A stretch of DNA of 64,000 bases from Streptomyces sp. NBC_00370 (GTDB taxonomy: Bacteria; Actinomycetota; Actinomycetes; Streptomycetales; Streptomycetaceae). Each line of letters starts with the position of its first letter. Positions within the stretch are counted from its first letter, which is position 1. Location: contig NZ_CP107968.1 of the NCBI RefSeq assembly GCF_036084755.1, positions 8,006,001-8,070,000 of the forward strand, written 5' to 3'. Below are positions 20,769-26,782 of the stretch, one piece after another. A model generated the notes under the pieces. That model saw nothing but the letters and a program-made list of their open reading frames with translations, searched no databases and was not told the DNA's origin. The position numbers and the translations under genes were made by a program.

Positions 20769-21536
20769 ATGGGAACTCTGGACGGCAGGACAGTGCTCGT
20801 GACCGGTTCGACCAGCGGGATCGGCCGGGCAATCGCCCTGCGGCTCGCCGCCGAAGGGGCGTACGCGATCGTGAGCGGGCGGGACGCGGGCCGAGGCGGC
20901 GCCGTGGTGTCGGCGATCCGCGAGGCGGGCGGCCGGGCCGACTTCGTGGCCGCCGATCTCAGCACGGCGGAGGCGGCCCAGGGGCTCGCCGCCGCCACTC
21001 TGGAACTGGTCGGAGGGCGCCTCGACATCCTCGTCAACAACGCGGGCATCTCGCCGGGGACCGCGACGCTGAGCCTCGACGTGGCGACCTACGACCGGGT
21101 CATGGACCTCAATGTCCGCGGGCCCGTGTTTCTCACCCAGGCGTTGCTGCCCTCGATGCTGAGCCGGTCGCAGGGCGTCATCATCAACATCGGGTCCTGG
21201 GTCGCCCAGGTCGGCTTCATCGGCGGCGCGCTCTACTCGGCGAGCAAGGCGACGCTGGAACAGCTGACCCGTGGCTGGGCCTCGGAGTTCGGCGGCCAGG
21301 GCATCCGGGTCAACGCCATCGCGCCCGGCGTGATCATCTCCGACCCCGAAGGGCCGGAGGCCGAGTTCCGGCACAAGATGGTCGAGGACTCACCCTTCGG
21401 ACACGCGGGCAGCGTGGCGGACATCGCGAACGCCGCCGCGTATCTGGCGGGCGACGGCGCGGGATACGTGCACGGTACGACGCTGGTCGTCGACGGCGGT
21501 GTCCTGGCGACCCGGCCGGGCCCGCGCCTGGGCTGA
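20769..21536 (+). CDS. SDR family oxidoreductase (FabG-like)
   Basis: A 255-residue classical short-chain dehydrogenase: TGSTSGIG cofactor motif (13-20), NNAG, catalytic Ser in INIGSW, YSASK, and RVNAIAPGVI. The C-terminal VHGTTLVVDGG is typical of FabG-like members. Its promoter is covered by two TetR-type operators, so it is probably induced by a small molecule, perhaps the enzyme's substrate. No TetR gene lies next to it; the nearest one in the window is at 52927. Confidence 0.88.
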   Translation: MGTLDGRTVLVTGSTSGIGRAIALRLAAEGAYAIVSGRDAGRGGAVVSAIREAGGRADFVAADLSTAEAAQGLAAATLELVGGRLDILVNNAGISPGTATLSLDVATYDRVMDLNVRGPVFLTQALLPSMLSRSQGVIINIGSWVAQVGFIGGALYSASKATLEQLTRGWASEFGGQGIRVNAIAPGVIISDPEGPEAEFRHKMVEDSPFGHAGSVADIANAAAYLAGDGAGYVHGTTLVVDGGVLATRPGPRLG

Positions 21537-22002
21537 GTGCGGAGCCGCCGTCCCCCAGGGCTCATTTCTGCCGCGACTCGACCAAATCCTTCCCGGCCCC
21601 TCCCCGCCTCCTCCGGCGGGGACCCGCCACCCTCGCGGAACTGAGTGTGCGATGCACGTTTCCGGTAACCGAAACGTTTCATTCCGTGCACTCCCGACAT
21701 CGTCCCTGGCCCCGCGTCCGCGCTCAAAGTCGTTGCCTGGTGCATGAGTTGGGTGGGCCGTTCGGGTATTTAGATACTCCCTTGACAAATTACGGCCACG
21801 TTGCCAACATGCAAAAACTCCTTGAGTACCTGCAATTACCGGCACGCGTTTCGAAAGTTCGCCTGAGATCGGTACGGCTGTCGCCTGGGTGAAGGGACAT
21901 CACCCAGGCCGCAGGTTCCTCCCCCCAAGTGACACGGCAGCGCGGTCGATGTGACGCGCGCCCATGCCTGACTCACCCCCGCAAGGTCAGGAAGGAAGCT
22001 CC
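21537..22002. other. Long regulatory region before the GSDH-CBM6 gene
   Basis: This gene-free region contains a weak terminator hairpin (CCCCGCC/GGCGGGG, 21602-21621), a GAAACGTTTC palindrome (21671-21680) and a related TTTCGAAAGTTCG element (about 21849), both like LacI-family sugar operators, a good promoter candidate (TTGACA 21782-21787, CAACAT 21805-21810, 17-bp spacer), and a perfect 10-bp stem-loop (GCCTGGGTGA 21883-21892 / TCACCCAGGC 21900-21909) inside the presumed leader. Confidence 0.55.
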
Positions 22003-24906
22003 ATGTCAGGACTGCCAGGAAAGCCAGGGAAGCACAGACAGTCATGGCTGAGATGGGTCACGGCGCTGGCGATGCTCGTCGCCGGCGCCGCCGTCAGCCC
22101 GGCGGCCGCCGCAGCCGCCCCCGCCGCCAGGACCGCCGCACCCGCCGTGGTCGCGCACCCCGAGGACGCTGCCGCGATACCGGCAAGCGACTACCAGCAG
22201 GTGCAACTCGCCCTGGGCGGTGCCGAACTGGGTGAGGCGATGTCGCTCGCCGTCCTCCCGGACCGAGCCGTCGTGCACACGGCGCGTGACGGCACACTCC
22301 GGTACACGGACGCCGCGGGCAACACCAAGACCTCGGCCAAGCTGAACGTGTACACGCACGACGAGGAGGGGCTCCAGGGCGTCGCCGCCGACCCCGGCTT
22401 CGCCAGCAACCGCTTCCTCTACCTGTACTACTCGCCGCGGCTCACCACCCCCGACGGCGACGCGCCGGTCACCGGCTCCGCCGCCACCTTCGACCAGTGG
22501 AAGGGACACCTCAACCTGTCCCGGTTCACTCTGAAGACCGACGGCACCCTCGACCTGGCCAGCGAGAAGGTCCTGCTCGAAGTGGCCAACGACCGTGGCC
22601 AGTGCTGCCACGTCGGTGGTGACATCGACTTCGACGCGCAGGGCAACCTGTATCTGACGACGGGCGACGACACCAACCCGTTCGAGTCGAGCGGCTTCTC
22701 GCCGCTCGACGAACGGACCGACCGTAACCCGCAGTTCGACGCCCAGCGCTCCTCGGGCAACACCAACGACCTGCGCGGCAAGGTCCTGCGGATCAAGCCC
22801 ACCGCGGCCGGCGGCTACACCGTCCCGTCCGGCAACCTCTTCGCGCCCGGCACCGCCAAGACGCGGCCCGAGATCTACGCGATGGGCTTCCGCAACCCGT
22901 TCCGGATGTCCGTCGACAAGGCCACCGGGATCGTCTACCTCGGCGACTACGGTCCGGACGCCGGTGTCACCGACGCCAACCGCGGCCCCAGCGGACAGGT
23001 CGAGTTCAACCGGATCACCTCGGCGGGCAACTACGGCTGGCCGTACTGCACCGGCACGAACACCTCCACCGAGACCTACAACGAGTACACCTTCCCGAGC
23101 GGTCCGTCCGCCGCGAAGTACAACTGCGGCGGTGGCCCCGCCAACAACTCGTTCCGCAACACCGGTCTGGCCACGCTGCCCGCGGTCAAGTCCGCCTGGA
23201 TCAGGTACGGCGGTGACGCGGGCTCGCCCGCCGAGTTCGGCGGCGGCTCCGAGTCCCCGATGGGCGGCCCGGTCTACCGCTACGACGCGAACCTCAACTC
23301 GGCTGTGAAGTTCCCCCAGTCCCTGGACGGGAAGTTCTTCGCCGGTGAGTACGGCCGCAAGTGGATCAAGGCCATCACGGTCAACGCCGACGGCAGCCCC
23401 GGCACCATCGACGCCTTCCCCTGGACCGGCACCCAGGTCATGGACACCGCCTTCGGACCCGACGGCGCGCTCTACGTCCTCGACTACGGCACCGGGGCCA
23501 ACAACCAGGCCCTGTACCGCGTGGAGTACGTCGGCGGGAGCAACCGCAACCCCGTCGCCGTGGCCGCGGCCAGCAAGACGTCAGGACCCACCCCGCTCGC
23601 CGTGAACTTCTCCTCGGCGGGCAGCTCCGACCCCGAGGGCAAGGCCCTCACCTACGCGTGGAACTTCGGTGACGGCGCCACCTCCACCGCCGCCAACCCG
23701 TCGCACACGTACACGACCACGGGCACCTTCCGGCCGACCCTGACCGTCAAGGACCCGGAAGGACTGACCGGCAGCGCCAGCCTCGTCGTGACCGCGGGCA
23801 ACACCGCCCCGACCGTCACGCTGACCACACCGAACGACGGACAGCTGTTCTCCTTCGGTGACACGGTTCCCTTCACCGTGACCGTCAGCGACCCCGAGGA
23901 CGGTGCCATCGACTGCGCCAAGGTCAAGGTCACCTACCTGCTCGGCCATGACGTCCACCAGCACCAGATCACCTCGAAGAACGGCTGCACCGGCAGCATC
24001 GCCGTACCCGTCGACGGCGAGCACGACAGCGCCGCCAACATCTACGGCGTCCTGGACGCCGAGTACACCGACGCCGCAGGGCTGACCACGCACAACCAGC
24101 GGGTCCTCCAGCCCCGCCACCGCCAGGGTGAGCACTACGGTGCCCAGTCCGGCATCGAGGTCGCGGCGCACGGCACGGCCGAGGGCGGCAACACCGTCGG
24201 CTTCACCGACAACGGCGACTGGATCTCCTTCAAGCCCTACGCCCTCGGCAACGCGAACAAGATCACCGCACGGGTCTCCTCCGGCGGTGTGGGCGGCAGC
24301 CTGGAGGTACGGGCCGGCTCGGCCACCGGCACCCTGCTCGGCACGGCCACGGTCGCACCGACCGGCGGCTGGGAGAACTTCGTCGACGTGTCGGCCAACC
24401 TGAGCGGCGCACCCTCCGGCACCACCGAGCTGTTCCTCGTCTTCAAGGGACCGACGGGCCAGGGCAACCTCTTCGACCTGGACGCCTTCACCTTCGCCAC
24501 CGGCACCACCGGCGGCGGCTCCAGCCAGACGGTGGAGGGTGAGTCCTTCACCTCCAACTCCGGTGTCCAGGCGGCTGATCACGCGCCTGCCAGCGGCGGC
24601 AAGACACTCGGCTACATCGAGAACGGCGACTGGGCCGGCTACGCGTCCGTACCCACGGCCGGCACCAAGACGTTCTCGGCCAAGGTCTCGTCCGCCGGGC
24701 CCGGCGGCACCATCACCGTCCGCTCGGGTTCGGCGACCGGCGCCGTGCTCGGCACCGTCGCCGTCCAGCCCACCGGCAACTGGGAGACCTTCACCACCGT
24801 CTCCACGTCGCTGACGGGCACGGCGTCCTCCGGAGCGCTCTTCCTGACCTTCACCGGCGGCTCCGGGTCCCTGTTCGACATCGACACGCTCACCCTCACC
24901 AAGTGA
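22003..24906 (+). CDS. Secreted GSDH (PQQ-type sugar dehydrogenase)-PKD-CBM6 protein
   Basis: A 967-residue exported protein. After a signal peptide (1 to about 40) comes a six-bladed glucose/sorbosone dehydrogenase-like propeller (about 55-520; YTHDEEGLQGVAADPGF, IYAMGFRNPFRMS, GGPVYRYD, LYVLDYG), then a PKD domain (about 525-605, YAWNFGDGATST), an Ig-like/Ca-rich segment, and two CBM6 carbohydrate-binding modules (about 700-825 and 840-967, each with GDW and SLFDID/NLFDLD). It probably oxidises sugars or glycosides while bound to polysaccharide. PQQ dependence is the family norm but not shown here. ATG 22003 has GGAAGGA. The ThuA gene follows with no gap. Confidence 0.85.
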   Translation: MSGLPGKPGKHRQSWLRWVTALAMLVAGAAVSPAAAAAAPAARTAAPAVVAHPEDAAAIPASDYQQVQLALGGAELGEAMSLAVLPDRAVVHTARDGTLRYTDAAGNTKTSAKLNVYTHDEEGLQGVAADPGFASNRFLYLYYSPRLTTPDGDAPVTGSAATFDQWKGHLNLSRFTLKTDGTLDLASEKVLLEVANDRGQCCHVGGDIDFDAQGNLYLTTGDDTNPFESSGFSPLDERTDRNPQFDAQRSSGNTNDLRGKVLRIKPTAAGGYTVPSGNLFAPGTAKTRPEIYAMGFRNPFRMSVDKATGIVYLGDYGPDAGVTDANRGPSGQVEFNRITSAGNYGWPYCTGTNTSTETYNEYTFPSGPSAAKYNCGGGPANNSFRNTGLATLPAVKSAWIRYGGDAGSPAEFGGGSESPMGGPVYRYDANLNSAVKFPQSLDGKFFAGEYGRKWIKAITVNADGSPGTIDAFPWTGTQVMDTAFGPDGALYVLDYGTGANNQALYRVEYVGGSNRNPVAVAAASKTSGPTPLAVNFSSAGSSDPEGKALTYAWNFGDGATSTAANPSHTYTTTGTFRPTLTVKDPEGLTGSASLVVTAGNTAPTVTLTTPNDGQLFSFGDTVPFTVTVSDPEDGAIDCAKVKVTYLLGHDVHQHQITSKNGCTGSIAVPVDGEHDSAANIYGVLDAEYTDAAGLTTHNQRVLQPRHRQGEHYGAQSGIEVAAHGTAEGGNTVGFTDNGDWISFKPYALGNANKITARVSSGGVGGSLEVRAGSATGTLLGTATVAPTGGWENFVDVSANLSGAPSGTTELFLVFKGPTGQGNLFDLDAFTFATGTTGGGSSQTVEGESFTSNSGVQAADHAPASGGKTLGYIENGDWAGYASVPTAGTKTFSAKVSSAGPGGTITVRSGSATGAVLGTVAVQPTGNWETFTTVSTSLTGTASSGALFLTFTGGSGSLFDIDTLTLTK

Positions 24907-24923
24907 CGGGCGGGAAAGGGACC

Positions 24924-26663
24924 ATGATGAAAGTGCTGCCCCTGCGGCTGAGACGGCTGTCCACCGCCTCCGCCTCGGTGATCGTCACCACGCTCGCCCT
25001 GGTCGGGGCGTTCCTCACCCCCGCCATGACCGCGCAGGCCGCCGACCCGGCGTACAAGGTGCTCCTCTTCTCCAAGACGGCCGGGTTCCGGCACGACTCC
25101 ATCCCGGCCGGCACCCAGGCCGTACGGGAGATCGGCGCGGCCAACAACTTCACCGTCACGGCGACCGAGGACAGCAACGCCTTCACCGCGTCCAACCTGG
25201 CGCAGTACAAGGCGGTGGTGTTCCTCAGCACCACGGGCGACATGCTGACCGACGCGCAGCAGTCCGCGCTGCAGACGTACGTCGCCGGAGGCGGCGGCTA
25301 CGTCGGCGTCCACGCGGCGGCCGACGCCGAGTACGAGTCGCCGCAGTACGAGCAGCTCGTCGGCGCCTGGTTCAAGAGCCACCCGGCGATCCAGCAGGCC
25401 ACGGTGCGCACCGAGGACCGTGCCAACCCGGCGACCGCCCACTTCGGGCAGACCTGGGCGCACACCGACGAGCTGTACAACTACCGCACCAACCCGCGGG
25501 CCAACGTGCACGTCCTGCAGACCCTCGACGAATCCAGTTACTCCGGCGGCGAGATGGGCGGTGACCACCCCATCACGTGGTGCCACCCGCAGGGCGGCGG
25601 ACGTTCGTTCTACACCGGCCTCGGCCACACCATCGAGACGTACGCCGACTCGTCGTTCCGTACGCTGCTGCTCGGCGGCATCCGGTACGCGGCCGGCTTC
25701 GCAAAGGCCGACTGCCGTCCGGACAGCGGGTACACGAGCCTGTACAACGGCTCGACGACCGGCTGGTCGCAGGCAGGGCCCGGCAGCTTCACCAACACCG
25801 ACGCCACCCTCACCTCCACCGGAGGCATGGGGCTGCTCTGGTACCGGGCGAAGGAGTACGCCTCGTACTCCCTGAAGCTGGACTGGAAGCTGGCGGGCGA
25901 CGACAACTCCGGTGTCTACGTGGGCTTCCCGGCCTCCGACGACCCCAACTCGGCCGTCAACCAGGGCTACGAGGTGCAGATCGACGCGACGGACAGCGCC
26001 GACCGCACCACCGGGGCCGTCTACGGGTTCAAGTCCGCGGACATCGCGGCCAGGGACGCGGCGCTCAACCCGCCGGGCCAGTGGAACACCTACGAGCTGC
26101 GGGTGGAGGGCGAGCGCCTGCAGGTCTTCCTGAACGGCGCGAAGATCAACGACTTCACCAACACCGACCCGGTCAGGTCGCTGAAGCAGGGCTACATCGG
26201 GATCCAGAACCACAGCGGGGACGACGACGTGTCGTTCCGCAACATCCGGATCAAGGAGCTGGGCGGCACCACCCCGACCAGTTCGACCTACGAGGGCGAG
26301 TCGTACACCTCGGGTTCCGGTGTGCAGCCCGCCGACCACGGCCCCGCCAGCGGTGGCAGGACGCTCGGCTACATCGAGAACGGTGACTGGGCCGGCTACT
26401 CCCAGGCGAGTCTGAACGGCGTCAAGTCCTTCACGGCGAAGGTCTCTTCGGCGGGCGCTGGCGGTACCGTCCAGATCCGCTCGGGCTCGGCCACCGGACC
26501 GGTGATCGGTTCGGTCGCCGTCCCCAACACCGGTGGCTGGGAGACTTTCCGGACGGTCTCCACGACCCTGCCGGGAACCGCCACGGGGCCGCTCTACCTC
26601 ACCTTCACGGGTGGGGCGGGGTCCCTGTTCGACATCGACACCATCACACTGACGCGGAGCTGA
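24924..26663 (+). CDS. Secreted ThuA-DUF1080 (3-keto-glycoside hydrolase-like)-CBM6 protein
   Basis: A 579-residue exported protein. Signal peptide (1 to about 40), ThuA-like domain (about 45-270: KVLLFSKTAGFRHDSIPAGTQAVREIG, YVGVHAAADAEYE, GGGRSFYTGLGHT), DUF1080/3-keto-disaccharide hydrolase domain (about 278-455, LYNGSTTGWSQ, NSGVYVGFP, GYIGIQNH), and a C-terminal CBM6. ThuA and DUF1080 proteins act on 3-keto sugars. It sits 17 bases after the GSDH gene; an alternative GTG start at 24903 would overlap that gene's stop. The two secreted enzymes are probably made together and act in sequence. Confidence 0.85.
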   Translation: MMKVLPLRLRRLSTASASVIVTTLALVGAFLTPAMTAQAADPAYKVLLFSKTAGFRHDSIPAGTQAVREIGAANNFTVTATEDSNAFTASNLAQYKAVVFLSTTGDMLTDAQQSALQTYVAGGGGYVGVHAAADAEYESPQYEQLVGAWFKSHPAIQQATVRTEDRANPATAHFGQTWAHTDELYNYRTNPRANVHVLQTLDESSYSGGEMGGDHPITWCHPQGGGRSFYTGLGHTIETYADSSFRTLLLGGIRYAAGFAKADCRPDSGYTSLYNGSTTGWSQAGPGSFTNTDATLTSTGGMGLLWYRAKEYASYSLKLDWKLAGDDNSGVYVGFPASDDPNSAVNQGYEVQIDATDSADRTTGAVYGFKSADIAARDAALNPPGQWNTYELRVEGERLQVFLNGAKINDFTNTDPVRSLKQGYIGIQNHSGDDDVSFRNIRIKELGGTTPTSSTYEGESYTSGSGVQPADHGPASGGRTLGYIENGDWAGYSQASLNGVKSFTAKVSSAGAGGTVQIRSGSATGPVIGSVAVPNTGGWETFRTVSTTLPGTATGPLYLTFTGGAGSLFDIDTITLTRS

Positions 26664-26687
26664 ACCAGGCTTCGCAGCAGGCACGTT

Positions 26688-26743
26688 CGCATCCGGCAGG
26701 GGCGGGCCCCGGGGAGACCTGGGGTTCGCCCCTGCCGGATGCG
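26688..26743 (+). terminator. Strong terminator of the GSDH/ThuA operon
   Basis: A perfect 17-bp stem (26688-26704 with 26727-26743), loop of 22 bases; ends the two-gene operon and may also serve the convergent gene at 26783. Confidence 0.85.
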
Positions 26744-26782
26744 GTACGTGTCACCCGCACCGTGCGTCCGATGTCCGCGACG

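Follow-up and report, generated by a model that had tools for sequence, protein, structure and literature searches.

The window analysed here, a stretch of 64,000 nucleotides from Streptomyces sp. NBC_00370 (NZ_CP107968.1, positions 8,006,001 to 8,070,000), carries two adjacent forward-strand genes, one encoding a GSDH-type propeller and the other ThuA and DUF1080 domains. They raise the question of whether two exported proteins of this make-up carry out successive steps of one reaction sequence outside the cell. An original prediction made from the letters of the sequence had proposed that one protein oxidises a glycoside and the other cleaves the resulting 3-keto sugar. Our analysis favours a reading of this kind: judging from gene content, linkage and predicted folds, we put the probability that the two genes encode an extracellular module for oxidising and then cleaving glycosides at roughly 0.6.

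Linkage of the GSDH propeller with ThuA and DUF1080

Gene 1 (22003-24906) runs from an ATG at 22003, chosen by eye and preceded by GGAAGGAAG, to its stop codon and encodes 967 residues within a longer open reading frame (ORF) of 980 residues; Pfam profiles gave the domain order GSDH-PKD-Big_7-CBM6-CBM6. Gene 2 (24924-26663) follows after a gap of 17 bp and encodes 579 residues with the order ThuA-DUF1080 (PF06439)-CBM6. Its start, ATG 24924 (on which this length is based) or ATG 24927, was likewise placed by eye behind GGGAAAGGGA and is likelier than GTG 24903, which is merely the first start codon of this frame in the ORF list. Both products look exported, their N-termini reading by eye as signal peptides (approximately 22003-22116 in gene 1, from the translation). 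The ORFs, their order, domains and end coordinates, and the presence of two adjacent exported multidomain genes, all agree with the original prediction.

The same domains recur in other combinations elsewhere in this genome: as a single ORF of the type GSDH-PKD-CBM6-ThuA-DUF1080 (locus L020), as a GSDH-PKD-CBM6 gene followed by ThuA-CBM6 (L021) and as a ThuA-GSDH gene with a cupredoxin-Ig-DUF1080 gene behind it (L022). We examined 80 related loci, the best 80 of 270 GSDH-domain matches in species genomes, using our own gene calls and profiles. GSDH and ThuA shared one ORF in 29 loci and lay in consecutive genes on the same strand in 43, giving 72/80 fused or adjacent in a set of close kin; DUF1080 was present in 52/80.

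Linkage was also surveyed across the class, in 40 evenly sampled genomes. Here short-type GSDHs, defined as matches ending at profile position 205-240 like that of the window, were separated from classical, full-length matches, and ThuA was counted as near when within 5 kb on the same strand. ThuA was near 28 of the 38 short-type GSDHs (24/33 with the window's own genome excluded) versus 0/53 classical ones (Fisher P 2e-15, kinship not corrected for); 14 'fragment/other' matches, two of them near ThuA, were kept outside this comparison. The 38 short-type matches came from 8/40 genomes, and strong DUF1080 matches occurred in 7/40, all seven among those eight. Counting the 24 DUF1080 matches above 100 bits (of 36 listed), 17 lay within 5 kb of a short-type GSDH. 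The single-ORF fusion in the same genome and the class-wide contrast of 28/38 against 0/53 place the GSDH-ThuA pairing far beyond chance and, with the 72 fused or adjacent loci, support the view that the two proteins form one functional unit. Relatives of the fused paralogue and of its whole cluster were found mainly in Streptomyces records, and no GSDH-ThuA-DUF1080 system appeared among the literature matches listed, a coverage that leaves out most subscription journals.

The propeller and its cofactor site

The propeller of gene 1 (22144-23538) was delimited by Pfam, alignment to soluble glucose dehydrogenase (sGDH), conservation and modelling; it scored 121.7 bits against PF07995 (cut-off 25), with the match spanning profile positions 3-236 of 332. 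A model built on an alignment of the window sequence and 24 of 88 GSDH domains (predicted local distance difference test, pLDDT, 88.1; predicted template modelling score, pTM, 0.91) has six blades. Its predicted fold matches 2ism and 3a9g (both Z 39.3) and the S. coelicolor structure 3das with bound pyrroloquinoline quinone (PQQ; Z 35.8), and more weakly sGDH (Z 31-33), Hhip (26-31) and fungal AA12 enzymes (27-29).

For the cofactor site we compared 93 GSDH sequences, of which 88 are domains from the related loci and the others the window sequence and four paralogues; residues are numbered by the 980-residue ORF. The catalytic His144 of sGDH corresponds to His216 and Arg228-Asn229 to Arg310-Asn311, each kept in 93/93. 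Arg406, which from our alignment we take to match Arg621 of PMC6881789, is replaced by Gln491 (Gln in 90/93), Arg408 by Met493 (Met in 82/93) and Lys377 by Gly464 (85/93), adjoined by Arg465 that is itself conserved (90/93). Thirteen diverse members, five from the same genome and eight from other records, all keep the catalytic His (13/13), and in none is the position of Arg406 or Arg408 occupied by Arg (0/13, partly read by eye: the rows g22 and L122 are misaligned at this site and were read as N-L-M-D and N-L-M-G). Both classical GSDHs of the same genome retain R-L-R. The Gemmatirosa relative L123 (L123:6001-8567), a two-piece match whose open frame covers the C-terminal part only, was left out of this alignment; its gene may be broken or the record in error. 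Directly before His216 stands the pair Cys214-Cys215 (window 22603-22611), present in 92/93 sequences and in 11/13 diverse members, the exceptions being Runella and Embleya. Eight-blade quinoprotein alcohol dehydrogenases also carry a vicinal Cys pair near PQQ. The window propeller is thus like sGDH, Asd (PF07995) and AA12 in its six-blade fold, catalytic His and Arg-Asn pair, and differs from them in the replaced Arg406, Arg408 and Lys377 equivalents, the Cys-Cys pair, the ThuA linkage and a C-terminal third that falls outside the Pfam match.

These residues bear on an alternative that we consider unlikely, namely that the propeller is a classical PQQ aldose dehydrogenase making aldonolactones from the reducing ends of polysaccharides and that gene 2 encodes an independent, co-transcribed glycan-active protein. 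Such an enzyme would fit the fold matches to PQQ aldose dehydrogenases (2ism, 3a9g, 3das) and the invariant His144, Arg228 and Asn229 equivalents. It would not lead one to expect Gln and Met at the Arg406 and Arg408 places in nearly all members while both classical GSDHs keep R-L-R, nor the lack of ThuA near any of the 53 classical GSDHs. Genes of PQQ synthesis, rejected as a test, do not decide the matter: the best PqqE match in the same genome scored 110.6 bits, below the cut-off of 381, and a PqqC match was found neither in this genome nor above the cut-off in any of the 40 genomes (one weak match, 19.8 bits), and none was found in 14 controls either. The sGDH residues Arg408 and Lys377 are PQQ contacts that are swapped for other residues in AA12, and PQQ can be taken from outside, as in E. 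coli (PMC6881789). AA12 enzymes hold PQQ through these other residues, and so the propeller could also bind it by other means; we regard its dependence on PQQ as doubtful, if possible.

Some distant relatives have electron carriers fused to the propeller. A tblastn search of plasmid records with the propeller matched 47 records, and we inspected the surroundings of eight. Domain orders included GSDH-PKD-cytochrome c-CBM6 in Runella, cupredoxin-GSDH in Halocatena (adjoining ABC transporter genes, a Gfo/Idh gene and a sugar isomerase/epimerase), cupredoxin-GSDH-cupredoxin together with a ThuA-GSDH-malectin-cupredoxin protein in Haladaptatus, and, in our own profile search, ThuA-GSDH-PKD-CBM6 in Paenibacillus and Embleya. 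Natronococcus encodes DUF1080-GSDH near a fusion of the order TIM barrel (AP_endonuc_2)-DUF1080 and an annotated multicopper oxidase gene, and on a Streptomyces fungicidicus plasmid genes for ThuA-GSDH and DUF1080 stand divergent from a multicopper oxidase gene. The stretches shown for Runella and Halocatena (2/8 inspected) contain nothing annotated as ThuA or DUF1080. Relatives of the propeller are thus spread over Bacteroidota, Bacillota and haloarchaea and variously fused to ThuA, DUF1080, cytochrome c and cupredoxins; the fused electron carriers argue for a redox role of the propeller, and the fused or adjacent DUF1080 and sugar-isomerase-like domains for keto-sugar chemistry. The sugar-oxidising propeller foreseen at the outset is backed in its redox role by these fusions; its use of PQQ is doubtful, given the replaced Arg406, Arg408 and Lys377 equivalents.

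Two further arrangements were seen. In the same genome, at 7.14 Mb (L022:10320-14965), the ThuA-GSDH gene adjoins the one encoding cupredoxin, Ig repeats and DUF1080, whose product may link a secreted copper electron acceptor to the cleaving domain. Elsewhere (L023:6601-11057) a GSDH-PKD-CBM6-FIMAH protein adjoins an AP_endonuc_2 TIM barrel whose own N-terminus looks exported by eye; ThuA is not adjacent there.

The ThuA-DUF1080 protein and the proposed reaction

The ThuA domain of gene 2 (25056-25691) matches the full PF06283 profile (positions 1-209 of 209; 256.8 bits), and the DUF1080 or 3-keto-disaccharide hydrolase domain (25728-26255) scored 142.1 bits against PF06439 (cut-off 26.8). Both were modelled on an alignment of the window and 24 of 51 ThuA-DUF1080 stretches (pLDDT 89.6). 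The predicted ThuA fold matches 4jqs (Z 23.1), 1t0b and 4e5v (Z 20-23), solved relatives whose titles give just 'ThuA-like protein'. The predicted DUF1080 fold matches the 3-keto-glycoside eliminase/hydratase 9fbe (Z 22.0), the 3-keto-2-hydroxy-glucal hydratase 8v31 (20.9), 8rr2 (20.6) and BT2157 (3osd; 20.5), with 173 residues fitted to 8rr2, 9fbe and 8v31 at 2.3-2.4 A. BT2157 has been called a 3-ketotrehalose hydrolase, and a Caulobacter DUF1080 protein was proposed as a periplasmic 3'-ketolactose hydrolase working with LacABC (PMC9007349). The PDB titles of the solved relatives suggest that cleavage by elimination and hydration is more likely than plain hydrolysis. The genes thuA and thuB are reported to handle trehalose and maltitol by way of their 3-keto derivatives (PMC7404187, PMC6515357), and the split of tasks between them has been called unresolved (PMC7404187). 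The claim that both domains act on 3-keto sugars is supported for DUF1080 by its fold family, with its solved eliminase/hydratases, and for ThuA, whose step is presumed, accords with the thuAB literature.

Other proteins of these families were noted alongside. Of five PF06439 matches in the same genome, two were sub-threshold and lay inside C-terminal lectin domains of GH59 proteins, which we rejected as DUF1080 relatives. One locus (L028:7903-9237) encodes ThuA joined to a ricin lectin, with an N-terminus that by eye resembles an export signal and without GSDH or DUF1080, and another (L027:6300-9303) a ThuA gene overlapping a Gfo/Idh gene beside an MR_MLE enolase-family gene, an arrangement resembling thuAB.

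Among known systems, the window pair is most readily compared with the 3-keto-glycoside pathway (Caulobacter LacABC and DUF1080; Bacteroides BT2157; 8rr2, 9fbe, 8v31, 8tda), with which it shares an exported DUF1080 protein beside a presumed sugar oxidiser and the predicted fold (Z 20.4-22.0). It differs in that the presumed oxidiser is a GSDH-clade propeller and not LacABC (PMC9007349) or an NAD-dependent Gfo/Idh enzyme, in the addition of ThuA as a frequent partner and in CBM6 domains that point to polysaccharide. A Pfam scan of the pair, its two flanking genes and a LacI gene, the window genes covered, found no LacABC, Gfo/Idh or GMC gene. The ThuA domain agrees with PF06283, 4jqs, 4e5v, 1t0b and rhizobial thuAB, which has been tied to the 3-keto compounds named above (PMC7404187, PMC6515357), in its full profile match and predicted fold (Z 20-23), and differs in being exported, in its fusion to DUF1080 and CBM6 and in lacking a flanking ThuB-like (Gfo/Idh) gene. 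On this genomic evidence the pair is a candidate new variant of the 3-keto-glycoside pathway.

In such a module both proteins, probably made from one transcript, would be held on polysaccharide by their CBM6 domains: in gene 1 a first one at 24124-24498 (PF03422; match to 2v4v) and a second at approximately 24529-24903 (PF03422 in two stretches; match to 1uxz over residues 856-962), and in gene 2 one at 26292-26654 (PF03422, 104.8 bits). On a glycoside, the propeller would oxidise a ring hydroxyl, most likely at C3, with the help of a bound cofactor and of an electron acceptor from outside. DUF1080, going by its family, would then split the 3-keto-glycoside by beta-elimination into 2-hydroxy-3-keto-glucal and the aglycone and hydrate the glucal to 3-keto-glucose, while ThuA may act on the keto compound or help to make or cleave it. 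Reduction or isomerisation of the products would take place inside the cell, through Gfo/Idh proteins, AP_endonuc_2 TIM barrels or similar enzymes; genes of both named kinds adjoin the fused version in this genome. The analysis shows the identity of the domains, their predicted folds, the linkage and the fusions, from which we infer the reactions, including oxidation at C3, the electron acceptor and what ThuA does, and a prediction follows: the keto-sugar made by the propeller should be the substrate consumed by DUF1080. The original idea of oxidation outside the cell followed by cleavage is thus supported in part, as regards the unit, its apparent export, the DUF1080 family and the redox fusions; oxidation at C3, the electron acceptor in actinobacteria, use of PQQ and the ThuA step are conjectural.

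Several observations weigh against an oxidise-then-cleave module. The propeller can stand alone, ThuA being not adjoining in 8/80 loci (L064, L065, L071, L074, L084, L085, L086, L088; in L084 it lies elsewhere in the locus, in the other seven it is absent from the stretch examined, which is short for L085, L086 and L088) and 10/38 short-type GSDHs of the class genomes lying away from it. The link is looser from the ThuA side, with only 33/52 ThuA matches of those genomes near any GSDH, and the 80 loci, as the best of 270 and close kin, are not independent. In almost every member examined, residues that make up the PQQ site of sGDH are replaced, and no domain recognisable as an electron acceptor is present in the actinobacterial pair. 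The DUF1080 domain ties by predicted fold between 9fbe and 3imm (Z 22.2) and 3s5q (22.1), both titled 'putative glycosyl hydrolase'; in sequence it is nearest to these structures without assigned function (3imm, E 1.4e-11; 3s5q) and weakly similar to the characterised enzymes (8v31, E 1.1e-4; 8rr2, 0.0027; 9fbe, 0.016). The family includes an endo-xanthanase/lichenase member (cited in PMC9007349), and with this member and its lectin-like fold DUF1080 may only bind or hydrolyse. Finally, all members are known from their genes.

The possibility of binding leads to a second alternative, in which propeller, ThuA and DUF1080 are all non-catalytic and serve glycan recognition or adhesion. Hhip uses the same propeller type for binding and matches the model (Z 26-31), the predicted DUF1080 fold resembles CBM66 and lectins (Z 15-18), and the CBM6 arrays would suit such a role; we nevertheless think it very unlikely, as the catalytic His is kept in 93/93 and 13/13 sequences, and relatives are fused to cytochrome c and cupredoxins or clustered with Gfo/Idh and sugar-isomerase-like enzymes.

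Beyond the oxidise-then-cleave reading of the pair lies a wider one, which we offer tentatively and as doubtful: the GSDH-propeller clade of bacteria and archaea could represent a new type of extracellular glycoside oxidase, one in which PQQ is not bound as in known enzymes (a different quinone, a metal or the two Cys residues beside the catalytic His may serve instead) and which makes keto-glycosides on polysaccharide for chain breakage by elimination through ThuA and DUF1080, that is, an oxidative, non-hydrolytic cutting of glycans outside the cell. Should this hold, a portable extracellular route of oxidation and elimination, beside glycoside hydrolases and lytic polysaccharide monooxygenases, would be common to some soil actinobacteria, Bacteroidota, Bacillota and haloarchaea, and a function could be given to GSDH, ThuA and DUF1080 proteins whose names so far reflect their domains alone.

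Transcript end, upstream region and genomic setting

Behind gene 2 lies one hairpin (26680-26752; 34-pair stem, -75.2 kcal/mol, z -12.35, with 0/200 shuffles equally stable), beyond which a convergent gene follows. Hairpin and convergent gene make it plausible that both genes end one transcript together, at the shared terminator first proposed; the terminator search listed no T-run terminator at this position.

Upstream of gene 1, where several LacI-like palindromes had been described, we found a single perfect one, GAAACGTTTC (21671-21680), in scans for palindromes and of upstream regions. It recurs in none of the 86 other upstream regions scanned, and the 11-mer around it, CGAAACGTTTC, occurs once in the 8.6 Mb genome, by our estimate about chance level for such a word; sites fitting a CebR-like pattern numbered 97 in the window versus 105.6 expected. 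The palindrome may be a private operator that is not conserved; it gives no evidence of a conserved LacI regulon, a reading that we rejected.

The neighbours of the pair are, by Pfam, an SDR gene and an AbiEi-like gene. The SDR (20769-21536) was rejected as a partner, being generic and having a relative anywhere in only 3/80 loci (L047, L048, L066). The pair itself holds no sugar transporter, as originally noted, but a periplasmic-binding-protein gene occurs near the paralogous fusion L020 and within four genes in 26/80 loci. Gfo/Idh genes, one of which stands beside L020, lie within three genes in 24/80 loci, AP_endonuc_2 TIM barrels within two genes in 27/80. In 29/80 the GSDH gene has the MIPS-like gene of an ebo-like cluster no more than two genes away, in 21 of them together with Gfo/Idh and binding-protein genes.

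The ebo association suggests a last alternative, that the module frees or processes a sugar or cyclitol for an ebo-type product, the window pair being a paralogue recruited to glycans; ebo clusters were suggested to make an isoprenoid-cyclitol (PMC5133447) and are needed for export of the scytonemin monomer (PMC6282210), but with 51/80 loci lacking a MIPS-like ebo gene within two genes, and an SDR and an AbiEi-like gene flanking the window pair, we give this little credence. Passages on ebo clusters that we consulted mention no partner of this kind.

In the same genome, at 6.93 Mb (L020:6107-17885), the fused gene sits between binding-protein, Gfo/Idh and AP_endonuc_2 genes and an ebo-like cluster with MIPS-like, UbiA, TIM-barrel and TatD genes and a possible EboA (labelled by position, with no Pfam match); judged by three of these marker genes, 21/80 loci repeat the arrangement. 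The window pair looks like a polysaccharide-directed, transporter-less branch, and the fused branch sits in a full cluster for uptake and keto-sugar metabolism. Between the propeller and the CBM6 domains, gene 1 also encodes a PKD domain (23542-23787; PF18911) and a Big_7 Ig-like domain (23809-23940; PF17957, 25 bits versus a cut-off of 24.1). Several of 10 hand-picked neighbours of other loci were GH2, GH95-like and GH99 proteins, one GH95 match (L055) falling just under the cut-off.

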